Source: Methylotenera sp.
GTDB lineage: Bacteria > Pseudomonadota > Gammaproteobacteria > Burkholderiales > Methylophilaceae
DNA: 64,000 nt
Assembly (NCBI RefSeq): GCF_029945705.1
Contig: NZ_JAQSDC010000045.1
Location: 1-64,000 of the forward strand
Reading direction: 5' to 3'
This document shows, piece after piece, positions 7,654 through 44,516 of this stretch (positions are counted from its first letter, which is position 1; each line of letters starts with the position of its first letter). The position numbers and the translations under genes were made by a program. The notes below the pieces were generated by a model. The model was not told the origin of the DNA, made no database searches, and saw only the letters and a program-made list of their open reading frames with translations.

Positions 7654-7688
7654 GTTGATAGCTTCAAACTCTTTATAGCATCTAAATG

Positions 7689-9599: not shown

Positions 9600-9775
9600 G
9601 ATTCTGTTACTTTCAGTGCTGTGGTCTTTATTAAGACATTCAGGATTGTTTTGTTAAATGTGTGACGAATGCGACTGTAATTTAATCTGTGTTGCTTGAA
9701 TCTATAAGATTTTCTAAATATCAGCATTATACATTGCTTGCTTATATATAAATTCAAGCTTATTTTTTAATATAT

Positions 9776-9805: not shown

Positions 9806-9837
9806 ATATATGATTTGCTTCATGGAAATTAAATGTA

Positions 9838-10329: not shown

Positions 10330-10389
10330 TCATTAGAATATATTCATTAGCTTTATACATTTCACTTTATTAAAATCTAGGAGAACATC

Positions 10390-11415
10390 ATGAACACCAA
10401 ACGCTCGTTATTAAATATCAAAGGCTTAGCACTCTCAATGCTCGTGTTGAGCATTTCAAATGCTTATGCGGAAGAAGCTAGTACAGCTGAAAGCGACAAA
10501 CCTGTTGTGGAGCAGATTGTAAACACACTCACTAAATTATCAGGTGGTCCATACAAAGGTTATCGTGCTAATCATGCAAAAGGCATTGTTGTGCAAGGTG
10601 AGTTTGTCCCTGCCAAGTCAGCTGCCAGTCTAAGTAAAGCGGTGCATTTGCAAGCAAAACCTAGCCCAGTGACTGTCCGTTTTTCAGATGCCACAGGTTT
10701 ACCAACCATTCCAGATGCAGATGGCAATGCTTTTCCTAAAGGCATCGCGATTCGTTTTCAGCTAGCAGATGGCGCATATACGGATATTGTGAGCATTTCT
10801 ACCAACGGCTTTCCAGCCGCAAAACCTGAAGACTTTTTAGGGTTACTTAACTCAATAGCGTCGAGCGGCCCAGACGCTGCAAAACCAACACCCGTTGAAC
10901 AATTTTTAGGATCACACCCAGCAGCACTGGCTTTTGTGCAAATGCCGAAGCCAGCGCCTGTTAGTTTTGCTACAGAAAGTTTTTATGGCGTAAATGCGTT
11001 TAAATTTACTAATGCAAAAGGTGAGACACAGTATGGCCGTTATCGCATTACTCCAATTAACGGCGCAGAGTTTTTAACAAAAGAACAGGCAGCTAAAGAA
11101 TCGCCAAACTATTTGATGGACGAACTGCCAGTGCGTTTAAGCAAAGCCCCAGCTAAATTTAAAATTGCGGTGCAATTGGCTGATAAAGGGGATGTTGTGA
11201 ACGACCCTACAGTGGTATGGCCAGAAACAAGAAAGCAAGTTGAGTTAGGAACGCTTACACTTAAAAATGTAGATGCTAATGGCGTAAAATTTGAAAAGGC
11301 GACGATGTTTAATCCGCTGGTGTTAGTGGATGGTATCGATGCTTCTGATGATCCAATATTGTTAGCTCGTCCTTCAGCTTACGCAGTGAGTTATGGTAGA
11401 CGCCTAGGTCAGTAA
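10390..11415 (+). CDS. Periplasmic catalase-related peroxidase (SrpA-like)
   Basis: 341 residues, with a signal peptide (cleavage after NAYA, ~27) and a strong AGGAG site before the ATG. It has the reduced catalase fold of the SrpA/catalase-related peroxidase group: distal His62 in RANHAKG, VTVRFSDATG, PKGIAIRF, STNGFP, and a C-terminal RPSAYAVSYGRR carrying the proximal haem-ligand Tyr and Arg. At ~340 residues it lacks the long arms of true catalases (~480 or more), as expected for this subfamily. These haem enzymes reduce organic or hydrogen peroxides, often with weak catalase activity. It sits 60 bp behind ohrR and is probably coregulated by peroxide; export suggests periplasmic detoxification. 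Confidence 0.88.
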   Translation: MNTKRSLLNIKGLALSMLVLSISNAYAEEASTAESDKPVVEQIVNTLTKLSGGPYKGYRANHAKGIVVQGEFVPAKSAASLSKAVHLQAKPSPVTVRFSDATGLPTIPDADGNAFPKGIAIRFQLADGAYTDIVSISTNGFPAAKPEDFLGLLNSIASSGPDAAKPTPVEQFLGSHPAALAFVQMPKPAPVSFATESFYGVNAFKFTNAKGETQYGRYRITPINGAEFLTKEQAAKESPNYLMDELPVRLSKAPAKFKIAVQLADKGDVVNDPTVVWPETRKQVELGTLTLKNVDANGVKFEKATMFNPLVLVDGIDASDDPILLARPSAYAVSYGRRLGQ

Positions 11416-11447
11416 TCTTTAGGTCAATAATAATTTAGCTTAGTAGC

Positions 11448-11484
11448 GAGCATTTATTCGAAGTGCCATGTCAAATAAATGCTC
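11448..11484. terminator. Hairpin between convergent peroxidase and asmA genes
   Basis: GAGCATTTATT (11448-11458) and AATAAATGCTC (11474-11484) are perfect 11-bp arms around a 15-nt loop, 33 bp after the peroxidase stop. No T-tract follows. It may be a bidirectional terminator or 3' stabiliser. Confidence 0.4.
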
Positions 11485-11539
11485 AATTAGCCTTAATCAA
11501 TTGTTATTGCTGAAGCAAGTCGCTAAGTAAGAGTTTAAG

Positions 11540-13627: not shown

Positions 13628-13836
13628 ATTAAATACCTTTATTATTCTTAAAGTCATTGATGCAGTTTATATCGCTAAACACCACACCCTACAAGAAAAT
13701 TGGGTGTGTGAGGTTTATAAGTAAATCTACATTATTACAGCACTATAAGGTCTAGTTATACTTGACTTCTAGACTTGGTACAGTCGAAATAAAGATGATA
13801 TTCATGTCAGAAATGGCTTACAGCGTCACTAGACAG

Positions 13837-15876: not shown

Positions 15877-16017
15877 GCAGTGCTTTTTTGAATTTTTTGA
15901 GTGAAACTTAAGCTTTAGATTTTAACGTTTAAGGCTCTAACAAGCTATCAATTAAATGATTAAAGCATGCCATAATTACTGGCTTAAAAATAAGCACTTA
16001 AAAGCTAAAGGAATCGC

Positions 16018-16290
16018 ATGCGATCAAGCGCAAGATCTACCAGAGCCAGTGCCGCGATTGATAGACTAAAAAAACGTAGCGGCAACGAAAATTATTCAAT
16101 GTCTATGAATAGTGGCGCAATGTTTAGCTTGCTGCTAGCCACTGGCGGTGGCGACTCAACTCGTTTATGCGAGCCAATGATGATGGAAGAGTTTGTGGTG
16201 TTTGTGAATGCCTACGGCCCACAAACGCCTAAACGTGTCAGTAAGCTAGATATTGAGTTTAGTAAGCAGCTGACTAAAAAAAGCGAATAA
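16018..16290 (+). CDS. Small protein, unknown (90 aa)
   Basis: 90 residues. AAAGGA six bases before the ATG supports the start. It has an Arg/Ser-rich basic N-terminus (MRSSARSTRASAAIDRLKKR), then a Gly- and Met-rich centre and a charged C-terminus (RVSKLDIEFSKQLTKK). There is no signal peptide. I do not recognise a family. Evidence that it is a real, selected gene is that a second, truncated copy of its 3' third survives at 18035-18126, and most of the differences between the copies are synonymous (AAT/AAC, CTA/TTA, GAG/GAA). Confidence 0.65.
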   Translation: MRSSARSTRASAAIDRLKKRSGNENYSMSMNSGAMFSLLLATGGGDSTRLCEPMMMEEFVVFVNAYGPQTPKRVSKLDIEFSKQLTKKSE

Positions 16291-16292
16291 GT
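16200..16292 (+). repeat. Direct repeat, copy 1 (3' end of the 90-aa gene)
   Basis: 93 bp that recur as 18035-18126 with about seven differences and a one-base gap (~92% identity). The two copies flank the secreted-protein gene at 16371-17906 in the same orientation, so recombination between them could excise it. Confidence 0.85.
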
Positions 16293-16370
16293 ATAACCAT
16301 AAGGAGTTTGTCCTCATTGATTTTTTACCTTAGTGTTTTTTGTTAACCTAAAATTTGGCTGAATTAAAAT

Positions 16371-17906
16371 ATGAATAAAAACATAATATCCTTTCACCAC
16401 CTATTGATAACCTTATTAACTATCTTTTGTATTTTTTTTTCGTTTAATGCCTCGGCAGATTTTAGACTAGCTATTGAAGCTTACCAGAAACGCAATAGTG
16501 AAGAGTTGTTAGCCCAAGTAGAAGATGCAGTAAAAACAAAAAACAACGATGGCTTAATGTTATTTTTTTACGCGATGAATTTAGATTCCTTTTCATCTGA
16601 TTACGTTTCTGACGGTAGCAAAACAACACTTAAAGCTATTCTAACTAAATCACAAAGGAATCAATTACGTGAGTTACTGGTTCAAGCAAGCAATAACAGT
16701 AATCTAGATGTGCAATATTACTTGCGTAGGAATAGCGCTTTTTACCAAGATTTCTTTATGTTAAGTCTTGGTAAGCAAATTGAACCTTTAAAACAAGACA
16801 TCAAACTTAGCAATGACGAGTTTTCAAAGGCACAGCGTCAAATTGATGATGAATATATTAAGCGTGGCAGTCAATTTACCATGTTAAATGCCTCGGCTCT
16901 TTCTTCCAGTGTGGCGCAGCATGCTGAGGCTGGCGATGCTGAAATACAAATGATGCTTGGGCTTCAATACATGAACGTCGGAAAAGACTCTGATAATGAT
17001 GCTCACTATGGTTGTCAGTACCAATCAAAAGAACCTATTTGCCAAAATAAAAATGAAGTAAAAGGTAATTATTGGCTTAAGCGTGCCGCTAAAAGCTACG
17101 ATACTAACATTGCCAGCGGCATTGATTTATTTGCCAGTCAAATGTGCAAATTTTTAAGCAAGAGTACAACTGATAACCAAGCCATATTAAAGCAAGCCTA
17201 TTTGTGGGCATTAATGGGCATAAGTGAGCGTGATTATACTCAATCACGCTCTTGCTTACGTGAGATGAGTGAAAATGGAACATTAAAATTGGCTGCGCCA
17301 CAACTTTACGCAGTTTGGGGTGACTGGAAAAAAGAAAATGAAATTTTATTAAATAAAAATAATGAGTTGCCTGATTGGATAGTTGAAATTAGAAAAGAGT
17401 TAGCACAATCTCCAATGCCAATTTTTGAATATGCTGGATTGGAAGTATATAAAGATGGGCGTGTGTTATTTGGTGTACCAAGAGCTTCTTATGGAGCCCC
17501 CTATAAAGACCTATATATGAAGGTGCCACCAAAAACCGTACAAAGATTCTTAAGTGACCTTAAAAAAACTGGATTTTATGACTGGACTGTAGCAGACTAT
17601 GACCATGGTATTTGTGGCGATTTTGGCGCGTGTCACGCTATGGAAATGACTTTCAAAGTGAGAATTGGCACAGATGTCCGCCGAGTAATATTAAATATTG
17701 CCAGCCCTGGAAAATTAGAGCCATTAGATAGAAAATGGGTTGGTGTGCAGCGGATGGCGACGCTTTACACCTTAACTGAAAAATACTTCCCTACCATAAA
17801 GTTACGGTGTGAGCTTGGTAATTCGGATAAATTTAGAGAAGAGTGCTTAGCTAGGAATGCAGAATGGTTGAGCATTGCCAATGCATATCCACAAGCGAAA
17901 AATTAA
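16371..17906 (+). CDS. Secreted Sel1-like/DUF6438-like protein, unknown
   Basis: 511 residues with a signal peptide (hydrophobic LLITLLTIFCIFFSF, cleavage after ASA, ~29). The middle has a Sel1/TPR-like unit (AEAGDAEIQMMLGLQYMNVG, then GNYWLKRAAKSYD, ~180-245) that suggests protein-protein contacts, with a nearby Cys pair. The C-terminal ~150 residues (FEYAGLEVYKDGRVLFGV, VQRFLSDLKKTGFYDW, CGDFGACHAMEM) resemble DUF6438-type domains, in which a Cys-rich loop follows a short helix; this match is from memory. It is flanked by ~92-bp direct repeats, with no operon partners. It could be accessory DNA. No biochemical role can be assigned. Confidence 0.6.
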   Translation: MNKNIISFHHLLITLLTIFCIFFSFNASADFRLAIEAYQKRNSEELLAQVEDAVKTKNNDGLMLFFYAMNLDSFSSDYVSDGSKTTLKAILTKSQRNQLRELLVQASNNSNLDVQYYLRRNSAFYQDFFMLSLGKQIEPLKQDIKLSNDEFSKAQRQIDDEYIKRGSQFTMLNASALSSSVAQHAEAGDAEIQMMLGLQYMNVGKDSDNDAHYGCQYQSKEPICQNKNEVKGNYWLKRAAKSYDTNIASGIDLFASQMCKFLSKSTTDNQAILKQAYLWALMGISERDYTQSRSCLREMSENGTLKLAAPQLYAVWGDWKKENEILLNKNNELPDWIVEIRKELAQSPMPIFEYAGLEVYKDGRVLFGVPRASYGAPYKDLYMKVPPKTVQRFLSDLKKTGFYDWTVADYDHGICGDFGACHAMEMTFKVRIGTDVRRVILNIASPGKLEPLDRKWVGVQRMATLYTLTEKYFPTIKLRCELGNSDKFREECLARNAEWLSIANAYPQAKN

Positions 17907-17933
17907 AGCTTGATGATTGACCTTGTTGGCAGC

Positions 17934-18038
17934 TTAAGTCGCATCATCTTCATTTCATCAGAAGCCCTGTCATCAAATATATGCAGTCAAAAATGTCACT
18001 GTGGTTCTTTCCATATTCCATAAACCATCTTGGCGTTT
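17934..18038 (-). pseudogene. Remnant of a second ylqF-like gene (3' end)
   Basis: On the minus strand, 18038-17990 aligns with ylqF codons around DGLWDMEKTAVAFLTDY (here reading DGLWNMERTTVTFLTAY, ~84% at DNA level). After an internal deletion, 17970-17934 aligns with the ylqF C-terminus: DDRASDE, then NEDDAT after one lost base, against DDAASEV and NEDEDI, including the TAA stop. Many differences are synonymous, so it derives from a once-functional homologue, not a recent copy. It ends abruptly where the 90-aa-gene remnant begins. Confidence 0.75.
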
Positions 18039-18126
18039 GTGAACGCCTACGGCCCACAAACGCCTAAACGTGTCAGTAAGTTAGATATTGAACTTAGTAA
18101 GCCGCTGACTAAAAAAATGAATAAGT
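18035..18126 (+). pseudogene. Truncated second copy of the 90-aa gene's 3' end
   Basis: 92 bp matching 16200-16292 at ~92%. The reading frame from VNAYGPQTPKRVSKL survives but has no start codon or 5' half. Near the end a one-base loss shifts the frame past the original stop. The junction with the ylqF remnant shares a few bases (GGCGTTTGTG), consistent with a microhomology-mediated deletion. Confidence 0.8.
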
Positions 18127-20004
18127 TTAAATATGTACTCGACTGCCTAATTCAATCACGCTATTGCTGGGAATATTGAAATATCCAACTACGCTACCTG
18201 CATTTCGCGACATTAATGCAAATAAATCATCACGCCATTTCGCCATCTTTCCACCAGGGCCAGAAATGACTGTTTCTCGGCTGATAAAGTATGAGGTGGT
18301 GAATGGGTCGATTGAAATACCGACCAAATTACTTTCTGAAAGTGTTTTAGGAATGTTGGGCGTTTCCATAAAGCCATAGTGTAATTTCACTTGCCAGAAG
18401 CCCGCGCCAATCTCTTTAATTGCTACCCGTTGTTCTTTTTCTACAGTGGGGGTGTCGGCAAACTCTACCGTGAGTATCAGATTTGTTTGATGTAACACTT
18501 GATTATGTTTTAAATTATGCATCAGCGCTTGCGGCACGGTATCTTGGTTTGCACAGAGGAATATCGCGGTACGCTCGACTCTTGCTTTGGTATCTCTAGT
18601 GATATTTTTAACAAAATCTTCAAGTTTAGGATCATCTTCGTGAATGTGTTGCAGCAAAATTTCACGACCTTGTTTCCACGTCCACATAATAGTGACTAAG
18701 CTTATGCCAAGCGCGATTGGGAACCATCCACCTTTAAAGAACTTAGCTGAGCAAGAGGTCAGTAATAGTAAGTCTAAGGCAAAGAAGGCAATGGTTGCGC
18801 TCAATGCTAGCCAAATAGGGTATTTCCAATTATGGCGTATCACAAAGTAGGTGAGTATCGTTGTAATCAGCATGGTGCCTGTCACAGCAATACCATAGGC
18901 TGAGGCAATGGCCGATGAATTTTGAAAAGCGATGGTCAGCATGATGACTGCAGCCAACAATAACCAATTGATTGCGGGTACATAAATTTGGCCTGATTCA
19001 CTTGCTGAGGTATGCAATATTTGCATTCTCGGTAAAAAGCCAAGTTGTATGGCTTGCTGCGTGATGGAGTAAGTACCTGAAATAACCGCTTGAGAGGCAA
19101 TGATCGTCGCCATTGTTGCCAGTATCACTACTGGCATTAACCATTCTTGTGGGAACGATAGATAGAACGGATTGCTCACGGCCGCTGGCGTTGTGAGTAG
19201 TAATGCACCTTGACCAAGATAGTTAAGCGCTAAACATGGAAAAACTAAGCATGTCCACGCAATGCGTATGGCTGGTCTACCAAAGTGCCCCATGTCGGCA
19301 TAAAGCGCTTCTGCTCCAGTAATGGCTAATGTGACAGCACCTACGGCTAAAAATACGCCAGTGCCACGGTCCGCTAAAAAGTGAAACGCATAGATTGGAT
19401 TCAATGCATTAAGAATCACAGGGTTTTGCAGTATGTGATGCACGCCAGTAATGCCTAATGTGACAAACCAAACGATAACAATAGGCCCAAAGAACTTACC
19501 AACCGTGTTTGTGCCATATTTTTGAACGGCAAAAAGTGAGATTAGAATGGTTAGCGCAATTGGTATCACAAATTTAGATAGCTCTGGCTTGATTAGCTCT
19601 AACCCTTCAACCGCAGAAAGTACCGAGATGGCGGGCGTGAGTATGCTATCGCCATAAAATAAGGCTGCACCAAATACGCCTAAAGCCATTAGTATTTTTT
19701 TACGATTTGGTGCGGCACTAGCACTTGAGATAGCAAGTGCCAGCAAAGCCATCACACCACCTTCACCTCGATTATCTGCGCGTAATACCAGTATGACGTA
19801 TTTCAACATCACGACTAACATCAACGCCCAGAGTACGGCGGAGATGGCGCCAATGATGTTCGCTTGATTTAGCACGATTCCTGTAGCGTCGCTAAAGATG
19901 ACTTGAATGGTGTACAAAGGGCTTGTTCCAATGTCGCCGTAAACTACGCCGATAGCCCCTAAAGTCAGCGCTGCCAGACTTTTGGATTTTATGTTGGTAT
20001 TCAT
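18127..20004 (-). CDS. kup: Low-affinity K+ uptake permease Kup
   Basis: 625 residues, the full Kup/HAK length. The N-terminal signature YGDIGTSPLY (22-31) is followed by about 12 transmembrane helices up to ~residue 430. Other conserved motifs are NRGEGGVMAL, GDSILTPAISVLSAVEGL, ALYADMGHFG and VISGTYSITQQAIQLG. A ~190-residue cytoplasmic C-terminal domain follows. It imports K+ with protons across the inner membrane. It lies downstream of kdpE/kdpD on the same strand but across a 232-bp gap with its own upstream region. A 20-bp site at 20058-20077 is repeated almost exactly before kdpD, suggesting KdpE control. Control of kup by a Kdp-type pair is unusual. Confidence 0.93.
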   Translation of the reverse strand: MNTNIKSKSLAALTLGAIGVVYGDIGTSPLYTIQVIFSDATGIVLNQANIIGAISAVLWALMLVVMLKYVILVLRADNRGEGGVMALLALAISSASAAPNRKKILMALGVFGAALFYGDSILTPAISVLSAVEGLELIKPELSKFVIPIALTILISLFAVQKYGTNTVGKFFGPIVIVWFVTLGITGVHHILQNPVILNALNPIYAFHFLADRGTGVFLAVGAVTLAITGAEALYADMGHFGRPAIRIAWTCLVFPCLALNYLGQGALLLTTPAAVSNPFYLSFPQEWLMPVVILATMATIIASQAVISGTYSITQQAIQLGFLPRMQILHTSASESGQIYVPAINWLLLAAVIMLTIAFQNSSAIASAYGIAVTGTMLITTILTYFVIRHNWKYPIWLALSATIAFFALDLLLLTSCSAKFFKGGWFPIALGISLVTIMWTWKQGREILLQHIHEDDPKLEDFVKNITRDTKARVERTAIFLCANQDTVPQALMHNLKHNQVLHQTNLILTVEFADTPTVEKEQRVAIKEIGAGFWQVKLHYGFMETPNIPKTLSESNLVGISIDPFTTSYFISRETVISGPGGKMAKWRDDLFALMSRNAGSVVGYFNIPSNSVIELGSRVHI

Positions 20005-33253: not shown

Positions 33254-34474
33254 ATGAGTAAAGTAAACAAAGTTGTACTAGCCTATTCAGGTGGTTTGGA
33301 CACTTCGGTAATTTTGAAATGGCTGCAAGATGAGTACCAATGTGAAGTTGTTACATTTACCGCTGATTTAGGTCAGGGCGAAGAGCTAGAACCTGCACGA
33401 GCAAAAGCTAAGGCAGCGGGCGTAAAAGAAATCTATATTGATGATGTACGCGAAGAGTTCGTGCGTGATTTCGTGTTTCCAATGTTCCGCGCTAATACCG
33501 TATATGAAGGCGAATATCTATTAGGTACGTCAATTGCCCGTCCTTTAATTGCAAAACGACTCATTGAAATTGCTCGTGAAACCAATGCTGATGCTATTTC
33601 ACATGGTGCAACAGGTAAAGGCAATGACCAAGTACGTTTTGAACTAGGTGCTTATGCGCTTAACCCAAACATTCAAATTATCGCTCCTTGGCGTGAGTGG
33701 GATTTACTTAGCCGTGAAAAGCTCATGGCATATGCCGAAAAACATGGCATTCCTGTCGATATGAAGCATAAACAGGGCGGCAGTCCATACAGTATGGATG
33801 CTAACTTGCTACATATTTCATACGAAGGTCGTCATTTAGAAAACCCAGCGGCAGAAGCTGAAGAGTCAATGTGGCGCTGGAGTGTTAGCCCAGAAAAGGC
33901 GCCAGATGCAGCCGAATACTTAGACATTGAATACGTGAATGGCGACCCTGTCAGTTTGAATGGTCAAGCAATGAAGTCGCATGAGCTTTTGGCGCATCTA
34001 AATACCATTGGCGGCAAACACGGTATTGGCCGTTTAGATTTAGTGGAAAATCGTTACGTGGGCATGAAATCACGTGGTTGTTACGAAACACCAGGCGGCA
34101 CCATCATGCTTAAAGCCCATCGTGCGATTGAAAGCATTACCTTAGACCGTGAAGTGGCGCACTTAAAAGATGATTTAATGCCGCGTTACGCCAGCATGAT
34201 TTACAACGGCTACTGGTGGAGTCCAGAGCGTGTTGCGCTGCAAACCCTGATTGACCATACACAAAGCACTGTGAATGGTTGGGTGCGCGTTAAACTTTAT
34301 AAAGGTAATGTGATTGTTGTTGGGCGTGATAGTAAAACTAACTCATTATTTGACTCTACCATTGCTACTTTTGAGGATGACAAAGGCGCATACGATCAAA
34401 AAGATGCAGGCGGCTTTATTAAGCTGAATGCATTAAGGTTGCGAATTGCGGCCAATTTGAAAAATAGGCAATAA
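33254..34474 (+). CDS. argG: Argininosuccinate synthase
   Basis: 406 residues, the type I ArgG length. It condenses citrulline and aspartate using ATP. The PP-loop [11 protein letters not shown] (~10-20), [13 protein letters not shown], and [21 protein letters not shown] are conserved. AAGGATTAGAAG before the ATG is an adequate ribosome binding site. It is the last gene of the arg operon in this window; argH is not adjacent. Two terminators follow. Confidence 0.96.
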
Positions 34475-34477
34475 GTG

Positions 34478-34504
34478 AAAGGGGCAGAATCTGCCCCTTT
34501 TTTT
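34478..34504 (+). terminator. argG terminator 1
   Basis: AAAGGGGCAG and CTGCCCCTTT form a perfect ten-pair stem with a three-base loop, followed by TTTT, four bases after the argG stop. This is a strong intrinsic terminator. Confidence 0.9.
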
Positions 34505-34563
34505 ATGTCATTAATTTTTGTAAAAGCCATTTTCAGATAGCTAGCTTTACAAATAATCTTAAT

Positions 34564-34597
34564 AAAAGAGCCTGATTTTTATCAGGCTCTTTTTATT
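34564..34597. terminator. argG terminator 2 (tandem)
   Basis: AAAAGAGCCTGAT (34564-34576) and ATCAGGCTCTTTT form a perfect 13-bp stem with a TTTT loop, followed by T residues. It can work on either strand. Placed 60 bp after terminator 1 with no gene between, it insulates the fae/che region from arg readthrough. Confidence 0.85.
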
Positions 34598-34907
34598 TGT
34601 GCAATTGTTACTCATGCAGAGTATTGTTAGATTCTTCATTATTTAGTTTTAATTGAACTTGTTTAAGCTTTCGTATAAGGGTGATTAGAGGTTGTAGATT
34701 TAAATGGTTTTTACCTGTTTATTCCAAAGATACGATTTATTAACAATCTTCATAATAGAAGATGTAAGCAACTCAATTCATTTGCTTAACTAGATATGAT
34801 GAAATTTGGGCGTATTGTAGTTTTAGCTCAATTGAGGGAAGTAGATGGCAATGCTTTTTGCAATGCCAAATTTGAGCAGTAATAATTTTATATTCAGGAG
34901 AATAAAA
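34598..34907 (+). other. fae upstream region
   Basis: 310 bp, very AT-rich. It contains a short inverted repeat ATCTTC/GAAGAT (34746-34763) and must hold the fae promoter, but I cannot point to convincing -35/-10 elements. An in-frame ATG at 34845 lies inside it and is rejected as the fae start. Nothing else is seen. Confidence 0.4.
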
Positions 34908-35597
34908 ATGGCTGTAATTGACCGTGTTTTAATTGGTGAAGCGTTAGTGATTGAAAATCGTCCAGATGGTATTGGTTTAGATCTTAAAAATGTAGCACAT
35001 ATTGATTTGATTATTGGCCCTCGTGGCAGTCCAGCAGAAGACGCTTTTTGTCGCACATTAACCGACCAAAAAGAAGGTGTAAATGGTTTGCTAGCGATTG
35101 TTGCGCCTAACTTAATGGTGAAACCAAACACTGTGATGTTTAACAAAGTAACCTTAAGAAACACTAAACAGTCTTTACAAATGTTTGGCCCCGCACAGCG
35201 TGGTATTTCAATGGCAGTGATGGATTGCGTGGCTGACGGTACTATTCCAGTAGAAGAAGCAGATGACGTATTTATCTGTATTGGTGTATTTATTGACCAA
35301 TCAGCAGACATGGACGATCGTATTCAAGATTGGAACTATGAGGCGACTAAAATGGCAATTAAGAATGCCATCAACCGCGAACCAAAAGCTGCTGAGTTAT
35401 TAAAAATTTATCAAGACACAGCACATCCATTTGCTGCAAAAAGTAAAGAAGAGCGCAACAGAAGAGCGGCTGATGCTTTAAGTGCACGTGCCATTGAACA
35501 AATGAAAAATCGTAATCCAAATATTGCAAAAGAGCCAGAGTTCGATCCTTCTGACATTGCATTAAGTGAGATGCGTGGTCGCAAGTCATCTACATAG
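34908..35597 (+). CDS. fae: Divergent formaldehyde-activating-enzyme (Fae) paralogue
   Basis: 229 residues from the ATG at 34908, which has AGGAG at 34896-34900; an upstream in-frame ATG has none. Canonical Fae (~170 residues) condenses formaldehyde with tetrahydromethanopterin. The core is conserved: the catalytic His (His31) in NVAHIDLIIGPRGSP, APNLMVKPNTVMFNKVT, MFGPAQRG and DWNYEATKMAIKNAI. Two features differ from the usual enzyme: about nine extra residues between GEALV and the catalytic His, and a ~50-residue charged C-terminal tail after THPFA (here AHPFAAKSKEERN). It therefore looks like a Fae2/Fae3-type paralogue whose activity is uncertain. It stands alone between strong terminators and the che genes, with only a hairpin separating it from cheR. 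Confidence 0.88.
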   Translation: MAVIDRVLIGEALVIENRPDGIGLDLKNVAHIDLIIGPRGSPAEDAFCRTLTDQKEGVNGLLAIVAPNLMVKPNTVMFNKVTLRNTKQSLQMFGPAQRGISMAVMDCVADGTIPVEEADDVFICIGVFIDQSADMDDRIQDWNYEATKMAIKNAINREPKAAELLKIYQDTAHPFAAKSKEERNRRAADALSARAIEQMKNRNPNIAKEPEFDPSDIALSEMRGRKSST

Positions 35598-35633
35598 AGT
35601 AGACGTAATTTAGCCATTGATAAGCCTGCTCAA

Positions 35634-35662
35634 TGTATGGCAAGTGACTTGCTTGCCATACA
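35634..35662 (+). terminator. Hairpin between fae and cheR
   Basis: TGTATGGCAAG (35634-35644) and CTTGCCATACA (35652-35662) are a perfect 11-bp stem with a seven-base loop. No T-tract follows, so it may stabilise the fae message or partly terminate, allowing some readthrough into cheR. Confidence 0.5.
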
Positions 35663-35700
35663 CGGGGTTAGGTTTGCTCTAAATTTAACGAAAGTTTGTG

Positions 35701-36594
35701 ATGCTAAAAGAAAAATCAACTAAAGAAGTGCAGAATGATCGCGAGTTTGACTTTACTAACAATGATTTTAGTCGAGTTCGTAAACTCATCTATCAGCATG
35801 CTGGCATCTCACTTTCAGAAGCTAAGTCAGACATGGTGTATAGTCGAATTGGTCGTAGATTGCGCACAGTTGGTTTTGATTCATTTAAAACATATCTAGA
35901 TAGCCTTGAAAATGAAAACAGCCCAGAAGAGTGGGAAGCTTTCACTAATGCACTCACAACAAACCTCACTTCATTTTTCCGTGAAGAACATCACTTTCCT
36001 ATTCTTGCCGAACATCTAGTTAGCCTTAAAAAACCTATTCGAATTTGGTGCTCTGCCGCTTCAACAGGTGAAGAGCCCTATACCATTGCGATGACAGCAT
36101 GCGAGGCGTTTGGCACGATGAAGCCGCCAGTAGAAATCATTGCTACAGATATTGATACCAATGTGCTTGCCACCGCTTCACGTGGCGTTTATCCGTATGA
36201 GCGAGTAAGCAAACTGTCGGATGGGCGTCGTAAACAGTTTTTCCAAAAAGGCACGGGCGCGCATGAAGGTTCAGTCCGCGTAAGGAATGAGTTGCGTAGC
36301 TTGATTACTTTCGAGCAGTTGAATTTGCTTGATGATCAATGGAGTTTAGGTGAACCATTTGATGCTATTTTTTGCAGAAATGTGATGATTTATTTTGATA
36401 AACCGACTCAAACCAAAATTTTGAGTCATTTTGTACCTTTAATGAAGCCGCATGCGATCTTGTTCGCAGGGCATTCTGAGAACTTCCTGTACGTGTCTAA
36501 CGATTTCCATTTGCGCGGAAAAACTGTGTATGAATTAAACGATGGCAAAACGATTAAACGTACTTCAAATCTGGTAAAAGAAAGAATTGTATGA
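35701..36594 (+). CDS. cheR: Chemotaxis receptor methyltransferase CheR
   Basis: 297 residues from ATG 35701 (a GTG lies one codon earlier). It transfers methyl groups from SAM to receptor glutamates. The N-terminal helical domain is ~17-90, and TTNLTSFFREEHHFPIL links to the SAM domain: WCSAASTGEEPYTIAM is motif I, IIATDIDTNVLATA the acidic loop, and DAIFCRNVMIYFD motif IV. No TPR tail. It overlaps cheD by four bases (ATGA), so the pair is translationally coupled. It is first in a cheR-cheD-cheB block, 104 bp downstream of the Fae paralogue. Confidence 0.95.
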   Translation: MLKEKSTKEVQNDREFDFTNNDFSRVRKLIYQHAGISLSEAKSDMVYSRIGRRLRTVGFDSFKTYLDSLENENSPEEWEAFTNALTTNLTSFFREEHHFPILAEHLVSLKKPIRIWCSAASTGEEPYTIAMTACEAFGTMKPPVEIIATDIDTNVLATASRGVYPYERVSKLSDGRRKQFFQKGTGAHEGSVRVRNELRSLITFEQLNLLDDQWSLGEPFDAIFCRNVMIYFDKPTQTKILSHFVPLMKPHAILFAGHSENFLYVSNDFHLRGKTVYELNDGKTIKRTSNLVKERIV

Positions 36595-37199
36595 GTATGC
36601 TACAAGAAGAAATTTCTACCACACTCTATTTCGACCGCACATTTGACTGTAACGCAGCAAAAATATCCCCTGGTGAATATTACTATACCGACAAAGATAT
36701 GGTGATTGTCACGGTATTAGGTTCTTGTGTCTCGGCCTGCATACGCGACAGCATTACTGGTATTGGCGGGATGAATCACTTTATGCTGCCTGATAGCGCT
36801 GCGGCCGATAAAGATAGCCCAGTGTCAGAATCTATGCGATATGGTACCTATGCCATGGAGGTGCTGATTAACCAATTATTACGAAATGGTGCTCGCCGCG
36901 AGAACCTGGAAGCCAAGATTTTTGGCGGCGGTAATGTACTAAAAAGCTTTACCACCATGAACGTTGGCGACCGCAACGCCATCTTTGTACGCAAATTTTT
37001 AAAAGAAGAGCGTATTCGAGTGACTAGCGAGGACTTGCTAGATATTTACCCCAGAAAAGTTTATTACTTTCCAAAAACTGGCCGAGTGTTAGTCAAAAAA
37101 CTTAAAAATATGCACAACGATACATTAGTCCAACGTGAAGAGGCTTACGCAAGCAAACTTAAAGTGGCAGATGTAGGTGGTGAAATTGATTTGTTTTGA
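36591..37199 (+). CDS. cheD: Chemoreceptor glutamine deamidase CheD
   Basis: 202 residues. It deamidates receptor Gln to Glu and can stimulate CheC-type phosphatases. The catalytic Cys46 (LGSCVSACIRD) and His63 (GGMNHFMLPD) with the later KIFGGG Thr/Gly region match CheD. A second ATG six bases in (36597) is an alternative start. There is no CheC in the window; CheZ is present instead, so receptor deamidation is the likely role. Confidence 0.94.
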   Translation: MSMLQEEISTTLYFDRTFDCNAAKISPGEYYYTDKDMVIVTVLGSCVSACIRDSITGIGGMNHFMLPDSAAADKDSPVSESMRYGTYAMEVLINQLLRNGARRENLEAKIFGGGNVLKSFTTMNVGDRNAIFVRKFLKEERIRVTSEDLLDIYPRKVYYFPKTGRVLVKKLKNMHNDTLVQREEAYASKLKVADVGGEIDLF

Positions 37200-37263
37200 T
37201 GACTCACTCATTAATGAGTAATTAATATAAGAAGAACTTCTAAAATCAAGAAGAGAAAATAAA

Positions 37264-38334
37264 ATGAAAATACGAGTACTGGTGATTGATGATTCCGCAT
37301 TAATTCGCAGCCTGTTAACTGAGATTATCAATAGTCAAGCTGATATGGAGGTGGTTGGCGCTGCGCCTGACCCAATTATTGCGCGTGAAATGATTAAACA
37401 GTTAAATCCAGATGTGCTGACTTTGGATGTCGAAATGCCAAAGATGGATGGCTTAGACTTTTTAGAAAAGTTGATGCGTCTGCGCCCAATGCCTGTAGTC
37501 ATGGTTTCAACATTAACTGAGCGTGGTTCTGAAATTACCATGCGTGCACTTGAGCTTGGCGCAATAGATTTTGTGACTAAGCCTAAAATGTCTATTTCAG
37601 AGGGCATGCGCGAATATACGGATATTATTGCTGATAAGATTCGTGCGGCCTCGCAAGCAAGAATTGCGACATTACAGCGACATGTCACAACTCAAAGTAG
37701 TAGTGCTGCACCAACGCCATTGCGTAATCCATTAATCAGTAGTGAGAAGTTATTAATCATAGGTGCCTCTACAGGCGGAACAGAAGCAATTAAATCGTTC
37801 TTGTTGCAAATGCCCTCAGACTGCCCTGGTATTTTAATTACACAGCACATGCCTGCAGGCTTCACCAAATCATTCGCAAATCGCCTAGATTCTCTATGCC
37901 AGATTTCCGTCAAGGAAGCCGCAGGAGGTGAGCGTATATTGCCTGGTCACGCTTATATTGCCCCTGGCGATAGGCACTTATTGTTGGCTAGAAGTGGTGC
38001 TAACTATGTCACTCAGTTGAGTGATGAGGCACCAGTCAATCGACACAAACCATCAGTCGATGTGTTATTTGCATCCGCTGCAGAATATGCAGGTAAGAAT
38101 GTGATCGGCGTGATTTTAACTGGCATGGGCAAAGATGGTGCGGTTGGTATGGCTAAAATGCGAGAGGCGGGCGCTTACAACTTTGCTCAAAATGAAGAAA
38201 GCTGCGTAGTCTACGGCATGCCTAAAGAGGCTGTTGCACATGGTGGGGTAGATGAGGTGGCACATTTGAATGATTTACCTAAGTTAGTGTTGAACTACCT
38301 AATGGCTAATAGCTCTCGCGCTTTGCGTGTGTAA
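37264..38334 (+). CDS. cheB: Protein-glutamate methylesterase CheB
   Basis: 356 residues. The receiver domain has Asp9/Asp10 and Asp55 ([13 protein letters not shown]). A ~35-residue Ser/Thr-rich linker joins it to the esterase domain with the triad Ser169 ([10 protein letters not shown]), His195 ([10 protein letters not shown]) and Asp in [12 protein letters not shown] (~290). It removes receptor methyl groups when phosphorylated by CheA. No cheA, cheW or receptor genes are in the window. It follows cheD by 64 bp. Confidence 0.95.
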
Positions 38335-38402
38335 TGTGAGTAAGTGTGATCATGGAAATATGTAGCTAGGAAAAGCGTCGCTTTTGTGTCGCTAATCTCG
38401 AA

Positions 38403-38429
38403 TAAAGCTTGAGATGAAGTAAGTAATAA
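38403..38429 (+). promoter_or_regulatory. Possible sigma-28 (FliA) promoter before cheY
   Basis: TAAAGCTT (38403-38410) matches seven of eight bases of the sigma-28 -35 element. After an 11-bp spacer comes AGTAATAA, which shares only the ATAA half of the GCCGATAA -10. It lies 89 bp before the cheY ATG in the 183-bp cheB-cheY gap. Weak support. Confidence 0.25.
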
Positions 38430-38517
38430 TGAATAAAGAAAGAATCAGAATAAGTCATTTAATGTATTTGAGGCTGATTTCGAATTCTATGAACGACTAT
38501 TTTTTATGGAGTAATGC

Positions 38518-38916
38518 ATGGCCAACCTAAATACAAAATTTCTTGTCGTGGATGATTTTTCAACCATGCGCAGGATCGTCAGAAATTTATTAAAAGAGCT
38601 TGGTTACACCAATGTAGATGAGGCTGAAGACGGTGCAATAGGGCTTAGTAAGCTTAAGGGTGGTGGATTCGAGTTTGTAGTGTCAGATTGGAATATGCCA
38701 AATATGGATGGCTTAACTATGCTTCAAAATATTAGAGCTGACCCTGAGCTGAAGCATTTGCCAGTGTTAATGGTGACGGCTGAAGCTAAAAAGGAAAACA
38801 TTATTGCCGCTGCGCAAGCCGGTGCGAATGGTTATGTAGTTAAACCATTTACAGCTGCAACTTTGGACGAGAAGTTATCTAAAATATTTGAGAAGCTTGA
38901 AAAAGCAGGGGCTTAG
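38518..38916 (+). CDS. cheY: Chemotaxis response regulator CheY
   Basis: 132 residues, a single receiver domain. It has Asp12/Asp13, the phospho-acceptor Asp57 ([14 protein letters not shown]), Thr87 ([10 protein letters not shown]) and the late Lys in [24 protein letters not shown] is the typical CheY N-terminus. TGGAG six bases before the ATG supports the start. It binds the flagellar switch when phosphorylated. Two bases separate its stop from the cheZ ATG. Confidence 0.96.
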
Positions 38917-38918
38917 TG

Positions 38919-39593
38919 ATGAATAGCGAGTCTTTACAACAGCAAGCAACACAGCTTGAACCCATGCCAGTAGCTAACCAAGGTGACGAGATGCTAAATC
39001 GTATTGGTCATGTAACTAGGTTGCTGCATGACAGTTTGCAAGGTTTGGGTTTAGATAAAATTCTTGAACAAGTTGCGCAAGATATTCCAGATGCGCGTGA
39101 TCGTTTAGCTTATGTATCACGTATGACCGAGCAGGCTGCAGAGCGTGTTCTAAATGCCACTGATTTAGCTACGCCGCTGCAAACTGAGCTAGCCAATGGA
39201 GCGTCCGCCTTAGAGATAAGCTGGAAAGAAGTGTTAGAAAAGCCTTCATTAAAAAGAGAATATAACCAGATCGCCGATGAAACTTTAGAGTTCTTAACGT
39301 TGACTGTTAAAAATACGACTGAAACCAAAGCCTTGTTAATGGATATTATGATGGCTCAGGATTTTCAGGATTTGACAGGTCAGGTTATCAAGAAAATTAC
39401 AGGCTTGGCTCAAGACTTAGAAAGACAATTAGTACAAGTACTAGTAGACTTTTCCCCAGCAACGGCTAAAAAAGAGAAAGAGAATGACGATAAAGCCACA
39501 TTAATGAATGGCCCACAGATTGACGCGACTGCCGTAGATGTTGTGGCAAGCCAGGAGCAAGTGGATGATTTGTTAGATAGTTTAGGGTTTTAA
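38919..39593 (+). CDS. cheZ: CheY-P phosphatase CheZ
   Basis: 224 residues from ATG 38919. It has a long helical body and the active-site segment MAQDFQDLTGQVIKK, with the Asp and Gln that insert into the CheY active site. A flexible Lys/Glu-rich linker leads to the C-terminal CheY-binding helix QVDDLLDSLGF. It speeds CheY-P dephosphorylation. Coupled to cheY. Confidence 0.95.
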   Translation: MNSESLQQQATQLEPMPVANQGDEMLNRIGHVTRLLHDSLQGLGLDKILEQVAQDIPDARDRLAYVSRMTEQAAERVLNATDLATPLQTELANGASALEISWKEVLEKPSLKREYNQIADETLEFLTLTVKNTTETKALLMDIMMAQDFQDLTGQVIKKITGLAQDLERQLVQVLVDFSPATAKKEKENDDKATLMNGPQIDATAVDVVASQEQVDDLLDSLGF

Positions 39594-39701
39594 TCGCAAA
39601 GATTACTAACATTGGTTACCTAGAATCAATTAACTAGTATTCAACTCCTAAGCATTGGTGGTTTTTCAATCTACCAATCAGAAATACTTTTGGTCAACTA
39701 A

Positions 39702-42401
39702 ATGGCAGATAAACACTTCACGGGATTGCGCGCCAAGATGCTGTTAGTGGTGGCGGCAGGTATGGTGTTACTGTTTACGATATTGTTTACAGTAGCGCGA
39801 ACAGTTCTGCTGGATGGCTATGCAAAGTTAGAATCAAATAAAACTTTAATTCAAGTCAATAGCGCCGTCACGCTATTGAGTGAGCAATCTCAGCAGTTAG
39901 AAGGTATCGTAAGTGAATACGCACATTGGGATGACACCTATCAATACATGGTGCAACCAGATGCTCGCTATATCGACTCTAACTATACGAACGAAACCTT
40001 CAATCACCTCAAAGTCAAAGCGATTCTCCTCGTTAACCCAGAAGGCGTTGCTGTATATAAACGCGGGTTCGATTTTACCAATAGCAAGCCATGGATTATT
40101 CCCAAGCTACTTGAACAAGCTATCAGCAAAGGCGGTATTTTTTTAAATCCTTATAAAGACCATATGGCTGAATTTTTCTGGACACCAGAGGGCCTTTGCA
40201 TTGTCATGGCTATGGATATACAACCAAGCACCAGTAAAGGCATGAGTCACGGTACTTTAATTATGGTGCGTCATGTTGATCAAACGCTCATCGAGCATAT
40301 TGAAAAAGTCATAGGTGCCAAGCTCACTATTCAACCATCGTTAAATGGTAAAGATGCTGATTTAGAGAAAAATTTAGCAATTAGTGGCACGGTTATTAAA
40401 CCTTTAAATGGCACAGAGGTGGCAGGTTATACGCTGATGAAAAGTTTTAATGGGCAGGCCAATCTGATGGTATCCACTTTAAGTAGTCGTGAAATATTTG
40501 AGCAAGGAGAGTCAAGCTCTAGTTTCCTTTCGTGGTCTACTTCAATCATCGCTTTAATGCTAGCGGCCATTAGCTGGATACTAGACAGAATGGTTTTAAT
40601 CCGCTTAGAACGTATGAGTGAAGACGTGGAGCGGATTAGCGATACCGCAGATATGTCGACTCGGATTAGGCAACTTAATGGTCATGATGAGCTAGCAACT
40701 TTGTCGCACGGTATTAATGGCATGTTAGACCGCATTGAAGACTCTCAATACGAACTTCAATTAGAAAAAGAGCGCGCCCAAGTGACGCTTGAAGGCATTG
40801 CCGATGCCGTCATTACTAGTAATCCAGCAGGTTACGTGCTTTATATGAACTCAGCCGCAGAGCGGCTTACAGGCATTAATTTAAGTGAAATGAAGATTAA
40901 AACTTTGCGCGTCTTATTTAAATTACTCGCTGAAGATAAAACTACGCCAGTGAGTAGTGAGTGGTTAACCGATTCATACAGCCCACAAGAAGAGGTGATA
41001 TTGGAGCGTGCCGATGGTGAGGAATTTGTGATACGCAAATCGGCCTCCCCACTTTATGATAGCGATGGCCATACTTTTGCTATTGTGACGGTGCTTCACG
41101 ATGTGACAATGCTTAGAACATTGTCTAATCAATTGACTTTTCAAGCTAGACATGACCAATTAACGGGTCTGATAAATCGCTATGAGTTTGACCGTAAAAC
41201 GCAAGCAGCCATTGATGATACGGCTATCGCTAATCGAGTACATTGCCTTGCTTATATCGATTTAGATCAATTCAAAATAGTGAATGATACTTGCGGCCAT
41301 ATGGCAGGCGATGTGTTGCTAAAACAACTCACTAATCATATGAAAGCCAAGGTGCGTAGCTCCGATACGCTTGCGCGTCTTGGGGGAGATGAGTTTGCTT
41401 TATTATTAATGGGTTGCGACTTAGTCAAAGCTCAAGAAATCGTCGAAGGCTTGCTAGAAGTGGTACGAGAGTATCGTTTCACTTTTGATGATAAAGTATT
41501 CAAAATAGGCGCAAGTGTGGGCCTTACCGAAATTTCACCGCTGCATAATTTAACGTTGAGTGAGTTGCTTAGCACGGTAGACTCTGCCTGCTATACCGCT
41601 AAAGAACAAGGCGGGAATCGCATACACATATACCGCTCTGACGATTCTGATATTAAAGAACACAATAACCAACTTGAATGGGTTTCTAGAATACATTTAG
41701 GGTTAGAAAATAAACAGTTCGTTCTATATATTCAGCGTATGGCAAGCTTAACCGAAGGCGCTGAACTTCATTGTGAGCTGTTAATCCGTATGCAGGCAAT
41801 GGACGGCTCATATTATCCACCAGGTTATTTTTTACCTGCTGCAGAACGCTATCACTTAATGCCTAAAATAGATTGTTGGGTAGTTGGCGAAGCGCTGGCG
41901 ATTATTGCCCGCAAAGGTGCTGCTTTCCCCTATGTTTGCGCAATCAATTTATCAGGTCAAACTTTGTCTGAGGATGGCTTTTTAGAATACGTAGTTGAAC
42001 AGATTAAACTACACAAAGTAGATACGAGTCGGATTTGTTTTGAAATTACCGAAACTTCCGTCATTGCTAATTTAAATAAAGCACGACAGTTTATGCATGC
42101 TTTACGCCAAATTGGCTGTCGCTTCTCACTAGATGACTTTGGCAGTGGCTTGTCTTCTTTTGCTTATCTTAAAAATCTGGAAGTCGATTTTCTTAAGATT
42201 GATGGCATGTTTGTTAAAGCCATTGTTAAAAATAAGATAGATCGTGCGATGGTTGAATCTATTAACAATGTTGGCCACGTAATGGGCTTACATACTATTG
42301 CTGAGTTTGCCGAGAATGACGAAATTATCAGTATGCTTAAAGAGATAGGCGTGGATTATGCGCAAGGCTATGGTGTTGCTAAGCCAGAGTTGTTTGAATA
42401 A
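39702..42401 (+). CDS. CHASE4-HAMP-PAS-GGDEF-EAL membrane c-di-GMP enzyme
   Basis: 899 residues. Helix 1 (~11-33) and helix 2 (~270-292) flank a periplasmic CHASE4 sensor (EYAHWDDTYQYM, YIDSNYTNETF). HAMP (~293-345) and PAS (~350-465) domains follow. The GGDEF domain has the intact RLGGDEFALLL active loop. The EAL domain keeps the catalytic ExLxR pattern (ELLIRM), ETSVIANL, and DDFGSGLSSFAYLKNLEVDFLKIDG. Both halves look active, so it could make or break c-di-GMP depending on the signal. It follows cheZ by 108 bp on the same strand. A link between motility and surface attachment is a reasonable inference. Confidence 0.93.
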   Translation: MADKHFTGLRAKMLLVVAAGMVLLFTILFTVARTVLLDGYAKLESNKTLIQVNSAVTLLSEQSQQLEGIVSEYAHWDDTYQYMVQPDARYIDSNYTNETFNHLKVKAILLVNPEGVAVYKRGFDFTNSKPWIIPKLLEQAISKGGIFLNPYKDHMAEFFWTPEGLCIVMAMDIQPSTSKGMSHGTLIMVRHVDQTLIEHIEKVIGAKLTIQPSLNGKDADLEKNLAISGTVIKPLNGTEVAGYTLMKSFNGQANLMVSTLSSREIFEQGESSSSFLSWSTSIIALMLAAISWILDRMVLIRLERMSEDVERISDTADMSTRIRQLNGHDELATLSHGINGMLDRIEDSQYELQLEKERAQVTLEGIADAVITSNPAGYVLYMNSAAERLTGINLSEMKIKTLRVLFKLLAEDKTTPVSSEWLTDSYSPQEEVILERADGEEFVIRKSASPLYDSDGHTFAIVTVLHDVTMLRTLSNQLTFQARHDQLTGLINRYEFDRKTQAAIDDTAIANRVHCLAYIDLDQFKIVNDTCGHMAGDVLLKQLTNHMKAKVRSSDTLARLGGDEFALLLMGCDLVKAQEIVEGLLEVVREYRFTFDDKVFKIGASVGLTEISPLHNLTLSELLSTVDSACYTAKEQGGNRIHIYRSDDSDIKEHNNQLEWVSRIHLGLENKQFVLYIQRMASLTEGAELHCELLIRMQAMDGSYYPPGYFLPAAERYHLMPKIDCWVVGEALAIIARKGAAFPYVCAINLSGQTLSEDGFLEYVVEQIKLHKVDTSRICFEITETSVIANLNKARQFMHALRQIGCRFSLDDFGSGLSSFAYLKNLEVDFLKIDGMFVKAIVKNKIDRAMVESINNVGHVMGLHTIAEFAENDEIISMLKEIGVDYAQGYGVAKPELFE

Positions 42402-42471: not shown

Positions 42472-42894
42472 TCAGAGTCCAACTCTTTTTACTGGTGGCA
42501 AGTTTGCCAACTCTTCATCTGAATACAATCGCCCGCTGGTAATAAAGGCGAAACCCGTACCGCAATCTAATGAAAATGATCCGCTAGAATTCGGAGTCGC
42601 ATCCAAAATCGTATGCATATTTTCAGCAAAGGTAAAGTGACTATCGCCCATGTAAAATGTTGCATCTTGCCATTCACCCAAAATGACGTCTGAGGCGCTC
42701 GGGTTAAATTCATTCATTGGCATACAAATGGGGCCGCTTCCTTCACAGCATCCACCAGATTGCAGAAATACGATAGGACCAAACTCAGCTGTTAATCTAT
42801 GAATAAGCGCTAATGCGCTAGGCGTGGCTGAAACACGTCTGGTTTTTTCGCGTTCATTCACTGTTGCAAGGCGCTCTATAGTGTCTGTATTCAT
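42472..42894 (-). CDS. DUF779 protein linked to aldehyde dehydrogenase
   Basis: 140 residues from ATG 42894, with GGAGC upstream; a TTG 15 bases earlier overlaps that site and is rejected. It has the DUF779 features: VFLQSGGCCEGSGPICMPMNEF with three Cys, DATFYMGDSHFTFAENMHTILD, and LDCGTGFAFITSGRLYSDEEL. Proteins of this family are found next to aldehyde dehydrogenase genes in many proteobacteria; their function is unknown. The clustered Cys could bind metal or react with aldehyde. It is downstream of the aldehyde dehydrogenase on the same strand, with a terminator between, so it probably receives readthrough. Confidence 0.85.
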   Translation of the reverse strand: MNTDTIERLATVNEREKTRRVSATPSALALIHRLTAEFGPIVFLQSGGCCEGSGPICMPMNEFNPSASDVILGEWQDATFYMGDSHFTFAENMHTILDATPNSSGSFSLDCGTGFAFITSGRLYSDEELANLPPVKRVGL

Positions 42895-42941
42895 ATATTT
42901 AAGCTCCAAAACTTAATTGACCAGTTTCTAAATAAAAAAAT

Positions 42942-42971
42942 AATAAAGGGCGAGTAAACTCGCCCTTTATT
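42942..42971 (-). terminator. Aldehyde dehydrogenase terminator / attenuator before DUF779
   Basis: AATAAAGGGCGAG (42942-42954) and CTCGCCCTTTATT (42959-42971) form a perfect 13-bp stem with a four-base loop. On the minus strand it is followed by ATTTTTTTATTT. It lies 25 bp after the dehydrogenase stop and 48 bp before the DUF779 ATG, so it should lower DUF779 expression relative to the dehydrogenase. Confidence 0.85.
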
Positions 42972-42995
42972 GTACTAAAGTGACAAGCAATTAAA

Positions 42996-44516
42996 CTAGA
43001 AGAAGCCTAATTTATTAGGGTTATAGCTGACTAACAAGCATTTAGTTTGTTGGTAATGGTCTAACATCATTTTGTGATTTTCACGACCAATACCTGACTC
43101 TTTATAACCACCAAATGCAGCATGCGCTGGATACGCGTGGTAGCAATTTGTCCAAACACGACCAGCTTTAATACCGCGTCCCATTCTGTAGGCCACTGTG
43201 CCATTGCGAGTCCAAACGCCAGCACCAAGGCCAAAGATTGTATCGTTAGCAATCGCTAACGCTTCAGCTTCATCTTTAAAGGTTGTCACAGCAAGCACTG
43301 GGCCAAAAATTTCTTCTTGGAATACGCGCATTTTGTTATGGCCTTTAAGCAAAGTAGGCTCAATGTAATAGCCTCCAGCTAAATCACCTGTTAACACGTT
43401 GCGGTTACCGCCAATTAATACCTCAGCACCTTCTTGTTTACCAATATCAATGTAATTCATGATTTTGTTCATTTGGTCTTCTGATGCTTGTGCGCCAAGC
43501 ATGGTACTTGAATCTAACGGGCTGCCTTGTTTAATGGCTTTTACACGTTCTAAGACGCGTGCAATAAATTTATCGTAAATTGATTCTTGAATAATTGCAC
43601 GTGAAGGGCATGTACAAACTTCACCTTGGTTAAAGGCAAACAATACTAAACCTTCAATGGCTTTATCAAAGAATGCATCATCTTCATCCATAATATCGGC
43701 AAAGAAGATATTAGGTGATTTGCCACCTAACTCTAGTGTTGCAGGAATTAAGTTGCTCGCTGCAGCGGTTGCAATTGTTCGGCCTGTCGCGGTAGAGCCT
43801 GTAAAGCCAATTTTGGCAATACGCTTGCTATTAGCTAGCGGAGCACCAACTTCACGGCCATAACCATTCACAATATTCACAGTGCCAGGTGGTAATAAAT
43901 CGCCAATCACTTCCATCAAAATTAAAATGCTGATAGGCGTAAATTCTGCTGGTTTTAATACAATACAGTTACCTGCAGCTAAAGCTGGCGCTAGTTTCCA
44001 AGCCGCCATTAGAATAGGGAAGTTCCAAGGAATAATTTGACCTACAACACCTAATGGTTCATGAAAGTGGTAGGCAACCGTATCATTGTCAACTTCACTA
44101 ATACCGCCTTCCTGCGCACGAATCGCACCAGCAAAGTAGCGAAAGTGGTCAACGGTTAATGGAATGTCAGCATTCATTGTTTCGCGAATAGGCTTGCCAT
44201 TATCAATGGTTTCAGCCGTTGCAATTAATTCAAGGTTAGCTTCAATGCGGTCAGCAATTTTAAGCAAAATGTTTGAGCGTTCAGTCGTCGATTTTGTACC
44301 CCAAGCATCTGCTGCTGCGTGTGCAGCATCTAAAGCTAGCTCTACATCTTCGGCACTAGAGCGTGCTACTTGCGTATAGCTCTTGCCAGTAATGGGCGAA
44401 ATTACATCAAAATATTGACCTTTTACAGGAGCAACCCATTTTCCACCAATGTAATTGTCGTACTTTGCTTTATAGGGAATATTTACGCCCATACCTTTTA
44501 ATATATCTAAACTCAT
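42996..44516 (-). CDS. NAD+-dependent aldehyde dehydrogenase (ExaC/AldB-like)
   Basis: 506 residues. It oxidises an aldehyde to the acid. The NAD-binding [39 protein letters not shown], the general base Glu in LELGGKSPN and the catalytic Cys in [12 protein letters not shown] are all present; the GEVCTCPSR form is typical of the ExaC/acetaldehyde dehydrogenase group. It starts at ATG 44516 with a GAGGAGT site upstream. DUF779 lies downstream, as is usual for this subgroup. In a methylotroph it may detoxify acetaldehyde or another aldehyde; formaldehyde as the main substrate is not established. Confidence 0.92.

Follow-up and report, generated by a model that had tools for sequence, protein, structure and literature searches.

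Why does a gene for a formaldehyde-activating enzyme (Fae) stand at the head of a chemotaxis cluster? The question is raised by a 64,000-nucleotide stretch of Methylotenera sp. (assembly GCF_029945705.1, contig NZ_JAQSDC010000045.1, positions 1 to 64,000 of the forward strand), called here the window, in which fae directly precedes cheR-cheD-cheB-cheY-cheZ on the + strand. An initial annotation, made from the sequence alone, had described this layout, with two terminators isolating fae from the previous operon; all the genes and both hairpins are confirmed (Table 1). From an insert, a tail and the linkage, it had suggested a protein tying one-carbon (C1) flux to taxis. The linkage is real, widespread and mostly known, and the enzyme looks ordinary. 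The answer that we find rather probable is that this protein is the working tetrahydromethanopterin (H4MPT)-dependent Fae of its genome, relocated to a che operon, with a tie to taxis that is chiefly one of expression. The linkage and the signalling hypothesis are already in print, in passages of PMC4109929 and PMC3728764; new here are a motif in the tail and the place of fae inside the operon.

The neighbourhood search covered 150 Methylophilaceae genomes, 110 of them with a Fae-family match. Linkage was tabulated for 112, the other 38 having neither a Fae nor an mch match, and was scored on match coordinates (6 kb to cheZ, 9 kb to mch), with false negatives at contig ends; G125, linked on reading its contig ends, is not counted. 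I-type and canonical-length Fae were split at 240 bits, most genes being classed by score and not read singly (a G039 row in the canonical class is really a fragment of the I-type and does not belong to the che-linked set). By score, I-type Fae is found in 83 of the 150 genomes, near cheZ in 41, near mch in 25 and near both in none. The same fae-che gene order recurs in several genera, which takes the linkage far beyond chance and beyond a single strain. The window protein, an I-type Fae adjoining cheR-D-B-Y-Z, is a member of this che-linked form of Methylotenera and Methylophilus. Genomes G117, G006 and G137, without CheZ, carry an unlinked I-type Fae: in G117 it is 85-86% identical and has no cheRDBYZ beside it, and those of G006 and G137 lie at the edge of the che-linked group in the Fae tree. 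In G117 (L113, 7811-11701) the gene adjoins divergent genes that by eye resemble CheW and CheR of a second chemosensory system.

The window protein matches the Fae family over its whole length, with 207 bits against PF08714 (cut-off 27) and profile positions 1-158 of 159 covered. Its His31 aligns with the histidine that we take to be catalytic in Fae. In the alignment to Methylobacterium extorquens Fae (PDB 1y5y), this residue lies within the conserved VAHIDLIIGPRGSP, and a nine-residue gap faces query residues 16-24; the retained histidine and the insert before it had both been pointed out initially, together with a charged tail of about 50 residues, which proves to comprise 52 residues after HPFAA. 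In the His-less paralogues Fae2/Fae3 the histidine is replaced, whereas the window protein keeps it. An AlphaFold model of moderate confidence (mean predicted local distance difference test score, pLDDT, 72.5) matches solved Fae, the best PDB matches being 1y60 and 1y5y (best E 6.1e-17). A set of 42 other I-type, 17 canonical-length and four archaeal proteins has 39 invariant columns; the 45 distinct che-linked proteins all keep 38 of these, His31 included, the exception being D106, which is E in some of them. The core is under strong constraint, with pooled ratios of nonsynonymous to synonymous polymorphism (pN/pS) of 0.037 in the window clade and 0.020 in Methylophilus (range 0.02-0.04).

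The insert had been read as a sign of altered substrate handling tied to taxis, and this reading is not supported. From GEALV to the His region, all but one of the 30 canonical-length and archaeal rows have five residues, and 86 of the 90 distinct I-type Fae have 13-16, or 8-11 extra, namely all 45 che-linked proteins and 41 of the 45 that are not linked to che. The remaining four, non-che-linked and including that of Methylobacillus flagellatus, have a stretch of eight residues, or three extra. Since 86 of the 90 have it, the insert is a trait of the I-type subfamily; as the mark of a sensor form it was rejected, being common to I-type Fae with or without che linkage.

The window genome encodes three Fae-family members. 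The other two (L002 and L003) read PEVIIG and PEILIG where Fae reads AHIDLI, without a histidine at the catalytic place, and by these motifs appear Fae2/Fae3-like, a label given in this analysis. The genome also carries mch, which shows only that part of the H4MPT pathway is encoded. As the only His-bearing Fae of an mch-encoding genome, the window protein is most likely the metabolic one. A similar situation is found in 27 of the 41 che-linked genomes, where score classes show the che-linked protein as the sole His-bearing Fae, and mch is present in 26 of those 27; the initial preference for something other than a second metabolic Fae is not upheld by this distribution. Genomes in which the che-linked Fae is the only one speak against a sensor role, as does G117. 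The sole-His-bearing status, the spread of the insert, the invariant columns, the core constraint and the AlphaFold match all favour an active enzyme.

Some further members of the family were observed in the survey. A second, canonical-length Fae (53-62% identical, without the insert) occurs in some of the genomes of L130-L132 and L134-L147; it never lies within the che or mch thresholds and accompanies tailed and tail-less che-linked Fae alike. Twelve Fae-family genes (L186-L196, L198), read from 11 genomes without a His-bearing Fae by score, show PEVAIG or PEILIG where the His stretch would be; G070, among these genomes, also has no mch match. The 1.5 Mb genome G122, without a CheZ match, holds an I-type fragment (C55, 7264-7449; 65% identical, query residues 135-196, two internal stops) that looks like a decayed fae.

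The place of fae within these loci bears on how it came there. A signature of methyl-accepting chemotaxis proteins (MCPs) ends at most 1.3 kb 5' of fae, on the same strand, in 32 of the 39 distinct che-linked clusters with enough upstream sequence (five more had too little), which puts fae inside the operon. The gap between MCP and fae is 53-60 bp in seven Methylophilus-type loci, and MCP signalling and HAMP domains were found in all seven upstream proteins scanned. Among clusters without fae, eight of ten have a frame of the same homology cluster 5' of cheR, the stricter MCP signature being present in four of the eight with enough sequence. To judge from these gene orders, fae most likely entered the operon between the receptor genes and cheR. 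Of the seven clusters without an upstream MCP, six comprise that of the window and those next to it in the Che tree; these have argG upstream. In the window genome, cheA, cheW and four MCP genes lie on another contig, without Fae or CheZ there, and the 1.27 kb read 3' of the last MCP contain no open frame of at least 140 aa. In the window lineage the operon appears to have split, fae being kept with cheR-Z, and because of this split fae would now lead the che genes.

The other distinctive feature of the protein is its tail. In the survey of 90 distinct I-type proteins, a tail of more than 14 residues is present in 30 of the 45 che-linked ones, each with one or two copies of the motif A[IVL]x[QE][ML][KRQ]xR; a tail of more than 13 residues occurs in none of the 45 others, and neither does the motif. 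The tail noticed initially is real, with a conserved motif confined to che-linked Fae among the proteins read. Long frames from the window and from further parts of its genome, partly repeated (L161 repeats window 1-20000) and totalling 27,581 residues, contain the motif twice, both times in the window Fae tail. Column conservation, calculated from 18 chosen of the 30 tails on which the motif was itself defined, averages 0.81 and 0.65 for the two motifs and 0.43 for the linker, and reaches 1.00 for NRR. With a pooled pN/pS of 0.14-0.20, the tail is under purifying selection. Two helices are predicted by AlphaFold at residues 185-202 and 214-225 (mean pLDDT about 50-67, the linker being below 50). 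A tail profile run on 52 genomes of the genus found only Fae tails below E 0.01, in eight genomes; at E <= 1 it gave 24 rows, consisting of 8 Fae tails and 16 weak matches, with 7 rows in GroEL. The che-linked Fae of the M. mobilis type end after a short RRATDK-like stretch, without a tail; as they remain linked, the tail is dispensable for linkage.

Several ideas about the tail were set aside. Derivation from, or mimicry of, an MCP helix is unsupported, as none of the 24 profile rows carries the MCP signature. The window tail has no Pfam match, and a Methylophilus tail has one at chance level. The predicted helices are not more amphipathic than shuffles. No relic tail was found past the stop of tail-less genes, in three forward frames of intergenic stretches of at least 150 bp, and the WEEF-type C-terminal ends of MCPs show no clean pattern against tail presence. 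Among the open-access titles and abstract openings searched, none mentions a tail on che-linked Fae, and a search for a 'C-terminal extension' of Fae gave no paper.

Could the tail give the enzyme a second job? Its motifs would then dock Fae to the receptor array or to CheR, CheD or CheB, and either formaldehyde/H4MPT occupancy would feed into taxis or formaldehyde would be removed locally. The restriction of the motif to che-linked proteins, its higher conservation than that of the linker, the selection on the tail and the specificity of its profile are what such a protein would show, as are the place of fae between MCP and cheR and the tendency, described below, of fae and cheZ to be retained or lost as a pair. 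The linked M. mobilis-type proteins do without the tail, however, the docking partner is only putative, the helices are of low predicted confidence and ordinary amphipathicity, and no weak profile row is an MCP. In passages of PMC10613068, moreover, a Methylobacterium aquaticum 22A mutant without both fae genes and hgd keeps methylotaxis and formtaxis, although its Fae is not of this form. Taken together, we regard a two-job protein as unlikely.

We give a similarly small chance to a neutral neighbourhood, in which fae would have landed by chance with its own promoter and kept its location by descent, without any functional tie. One gain and a few losses are enough for the Fae tree, which requires three changes in linkage; a contig end (L023) and a real absence of che genes (G117) account for two of them. 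This tree and the Che tree are quick searches with Shimodaira-Hasegawa-like approximate likelihood ratio (SH-aLRT) support only and long branches. Between fae and the beginning of the cheR alignment lie 53 to 517 bp, which in some lineages include hairpins, as a neutral history would allow; the gaps are nevertheless short on both sides of fae in Methylophilus-type loci. According to passages of PMC3728764, the che-linked fae of M. mobilis JLW8 is expressed far below another fae, is unresponsive in situ and has only partially conserved surroundings. A neutral neighbourhood fits poorly with fae staying beside cheR when the window-lineage operon split and with a tail seen only in the che-linked location. 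The contig of L023, labelled Bacteroidota and holding a typical Methylotenera-like fae (86% identical), is probably mis-binned. Least likely in our estimate is the view that a metabolic enzyme was made a chemotaxis component with catalysis kept, its repeated tail helices tethering the Fae oligomer to the array or the adaptation enzymes and coupling formaldehyde flux to taxis.

The reading as a relocated metabolic enzyme would involve the following steps. On the trees and synteny, fae would have moved, probably a single time and in the ancestor shared by the Methylotenera-Methylophilus group, from the H4MPT gene cluster to a site between receptor genes and cheR in a chemotaxis operon. In the window lineage the operon would have broken between the receptors and fae, leaving fae, with a promoter of its own, to head cheR-D-B-Y-Z behind the two terminators. 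The enzyme would keep its usual job, and its link to taxis would lie chiefly in expression, C1-handling cells that make Fae making the adaptation proteins as well. Such co-expression fits the over-expressed cluster m301_0896-0902 in passages of PMC3728764, where fae m301_0896 is about 10-fold over-expressed in sediment. The tail would most likely be a docking segment gained after the move, in which an invariant NRR..D stretch is combined with one short helix or two, for a putative partner.

Several observations weigh against this reading. By score, 27 of the 150 genomes keep mch without the His-bearing Fae class, and the pathway may on that account do without Fae; passages of PMC4109929 already describe a strain of this kind. 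The conserved tail, seen in no Fae but the che-linked form, suggests something beyond co-expression. The expression of the JLW8 gene is a further difficulty, and codon usage in the window fae (0.31 C-ending among counted codons), near that of its che neighbours and far from that of groEL (0.59), gives no sign of very high expression. In the Che tree, which has several long branches, fae presence needs three changes and the starred branches force at least two, so a single entry requires at least one loss or transfer. Finally, a count over 68 genomes from five genera gives 42 with both I-type Fae and CheZ and 19 with neither, 6 having fae only and 1 cheZ only. A purely metabolic role does not predict that the two be mostly kept or lost together; the pattern is confounded by genome reduction and shared descent, and its Fisher tests ignore kinship. 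Planktonic members of the family have lost motility and chemotaxis, as stated in passages of PMC6794327.

The closest known systems set this protein in context. The Fae of M. extorquens AM1 (PDB 1y5y, 1y60) has the whole core, the histidine and the fold in common with it, but the solved chain has neither the insert nor the tail. The I-type Fae near mch, of the Methylobacillus and Methylovorus types, belong to the same tree subfamily (66-82% identity to the window Fae) and nearly all have the insert, but end near HPFxAK without a tail and lie near mch, not che. EfgA of M. extorquens is a different protein from Fae, tied to growth arrest. It is a dedicated formaldehyde sensor in a methylotroph (PMC8153426). 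A known tie of C1 metabolism to taxis is provided by MtpA, MtpB and MtpC of M. aquaticum 22A, which, unlike Fae, are MCPs, taxis in that strain being independent of Fae (passages of PMC10613068). The fae genes of Methylotenera and Methylophilus chemotaxis clusters have the same linkage, and the window adds another member; the passages concerned of PMC4109929 and PMC3728764 make no mention of tail, motif, insert or the place between mcp and cheR. Those of PMC4109929 report one fae in a conserved chemotaxis cluster, where Methylovorus and Methylobacillus have theirs in H4MPT clusters, and a single Fae in Methylophilus methylotrophus, and consider signalling functions possible for Fae-like genes; that Fae might sense or signal had been proposed before, as passages of both papers note.

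The proposal that Fae acts in signalling is years old, and a tail motif with a clear pattern of presence and absence now gives it a concrete handle. Natural contrasts are offered by the tail-less M. mobilis-type proteins, by M. methylotrophus with its single Fae and by G117, with Fae but without CheZ. Even on the plain reading as a relocated enzyme, the locus is a clear example of how a gene of central metabolism can pass into an operon for behaviour.

Table 1. Features of the fae-che locus in the window.
Feature	Positions	Strand	Basis
Intrinsic-terminator-like hairpin 3' of argG	34477..34501	+	Terminator-like site scan
Second terminator-like hairpin, 5' of fae	34564..34593	+	Terminator-like site scan
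fae, I-type formaldehyde-activating enzyme, 229 aa	34908..35597	+	PF08714 match, alignment, AlphaFold model
Nine-residue insert, residues 16-24, relative to M. extorquens Fae	34953..34979	+	Alignment; I-type trait
His31 codon	34998..35000	+	Alignment with His of Fae
C-terminal tail, residues 178-229	35439..35594	+	Protein comparison; two low-confidence predicted helices
Tail motif copy 1, AIEQMKNR	35490..35513	+	Motif count in tails
Tail motif copy 2, ALSEMRGR	35559..35582	+	Motif count in tails
Hairpin between fae and cheR, without T run	35634..35662	+	Comparison with close relatives
cheR	35698..36594	+	Domain match
cheD	36591..37199	+	Domain match
cheB	37264..38334	+	Domain match
cheY	38518..38916	+	Response regulator domain; place between cheB and cheZ
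cheZ	38916..39593	+	Domain match

The two terminators are supported by their stems (11 and 13 pairs, with T runs) and not by the number of terminator-like sites in the region (7, with 5.0 expected in shuffles). The hairpin between fae and cheR, absent from the initial annotation, is kept in three close relatives (L012, L013, L093), with a compensatory G-C to A-T change in one of them, and the exact pattern of its core occurs once in the genome; Rfam gave no match at gathering score on 34400-39800. Directly 3' of cheZ lies a gene for a CHASE4-PAS-GGDEF-EAL protein (39702-42401), found at that place in only some relatives. It is followed, at 42472-44516 and convergent to the fae-che cluster, by genes for a DUF779 protein and an aldehyde dehydrogenase (Pfam), a pair that recurs downstream at many loci in Methylophilus and part of Methylotenera.

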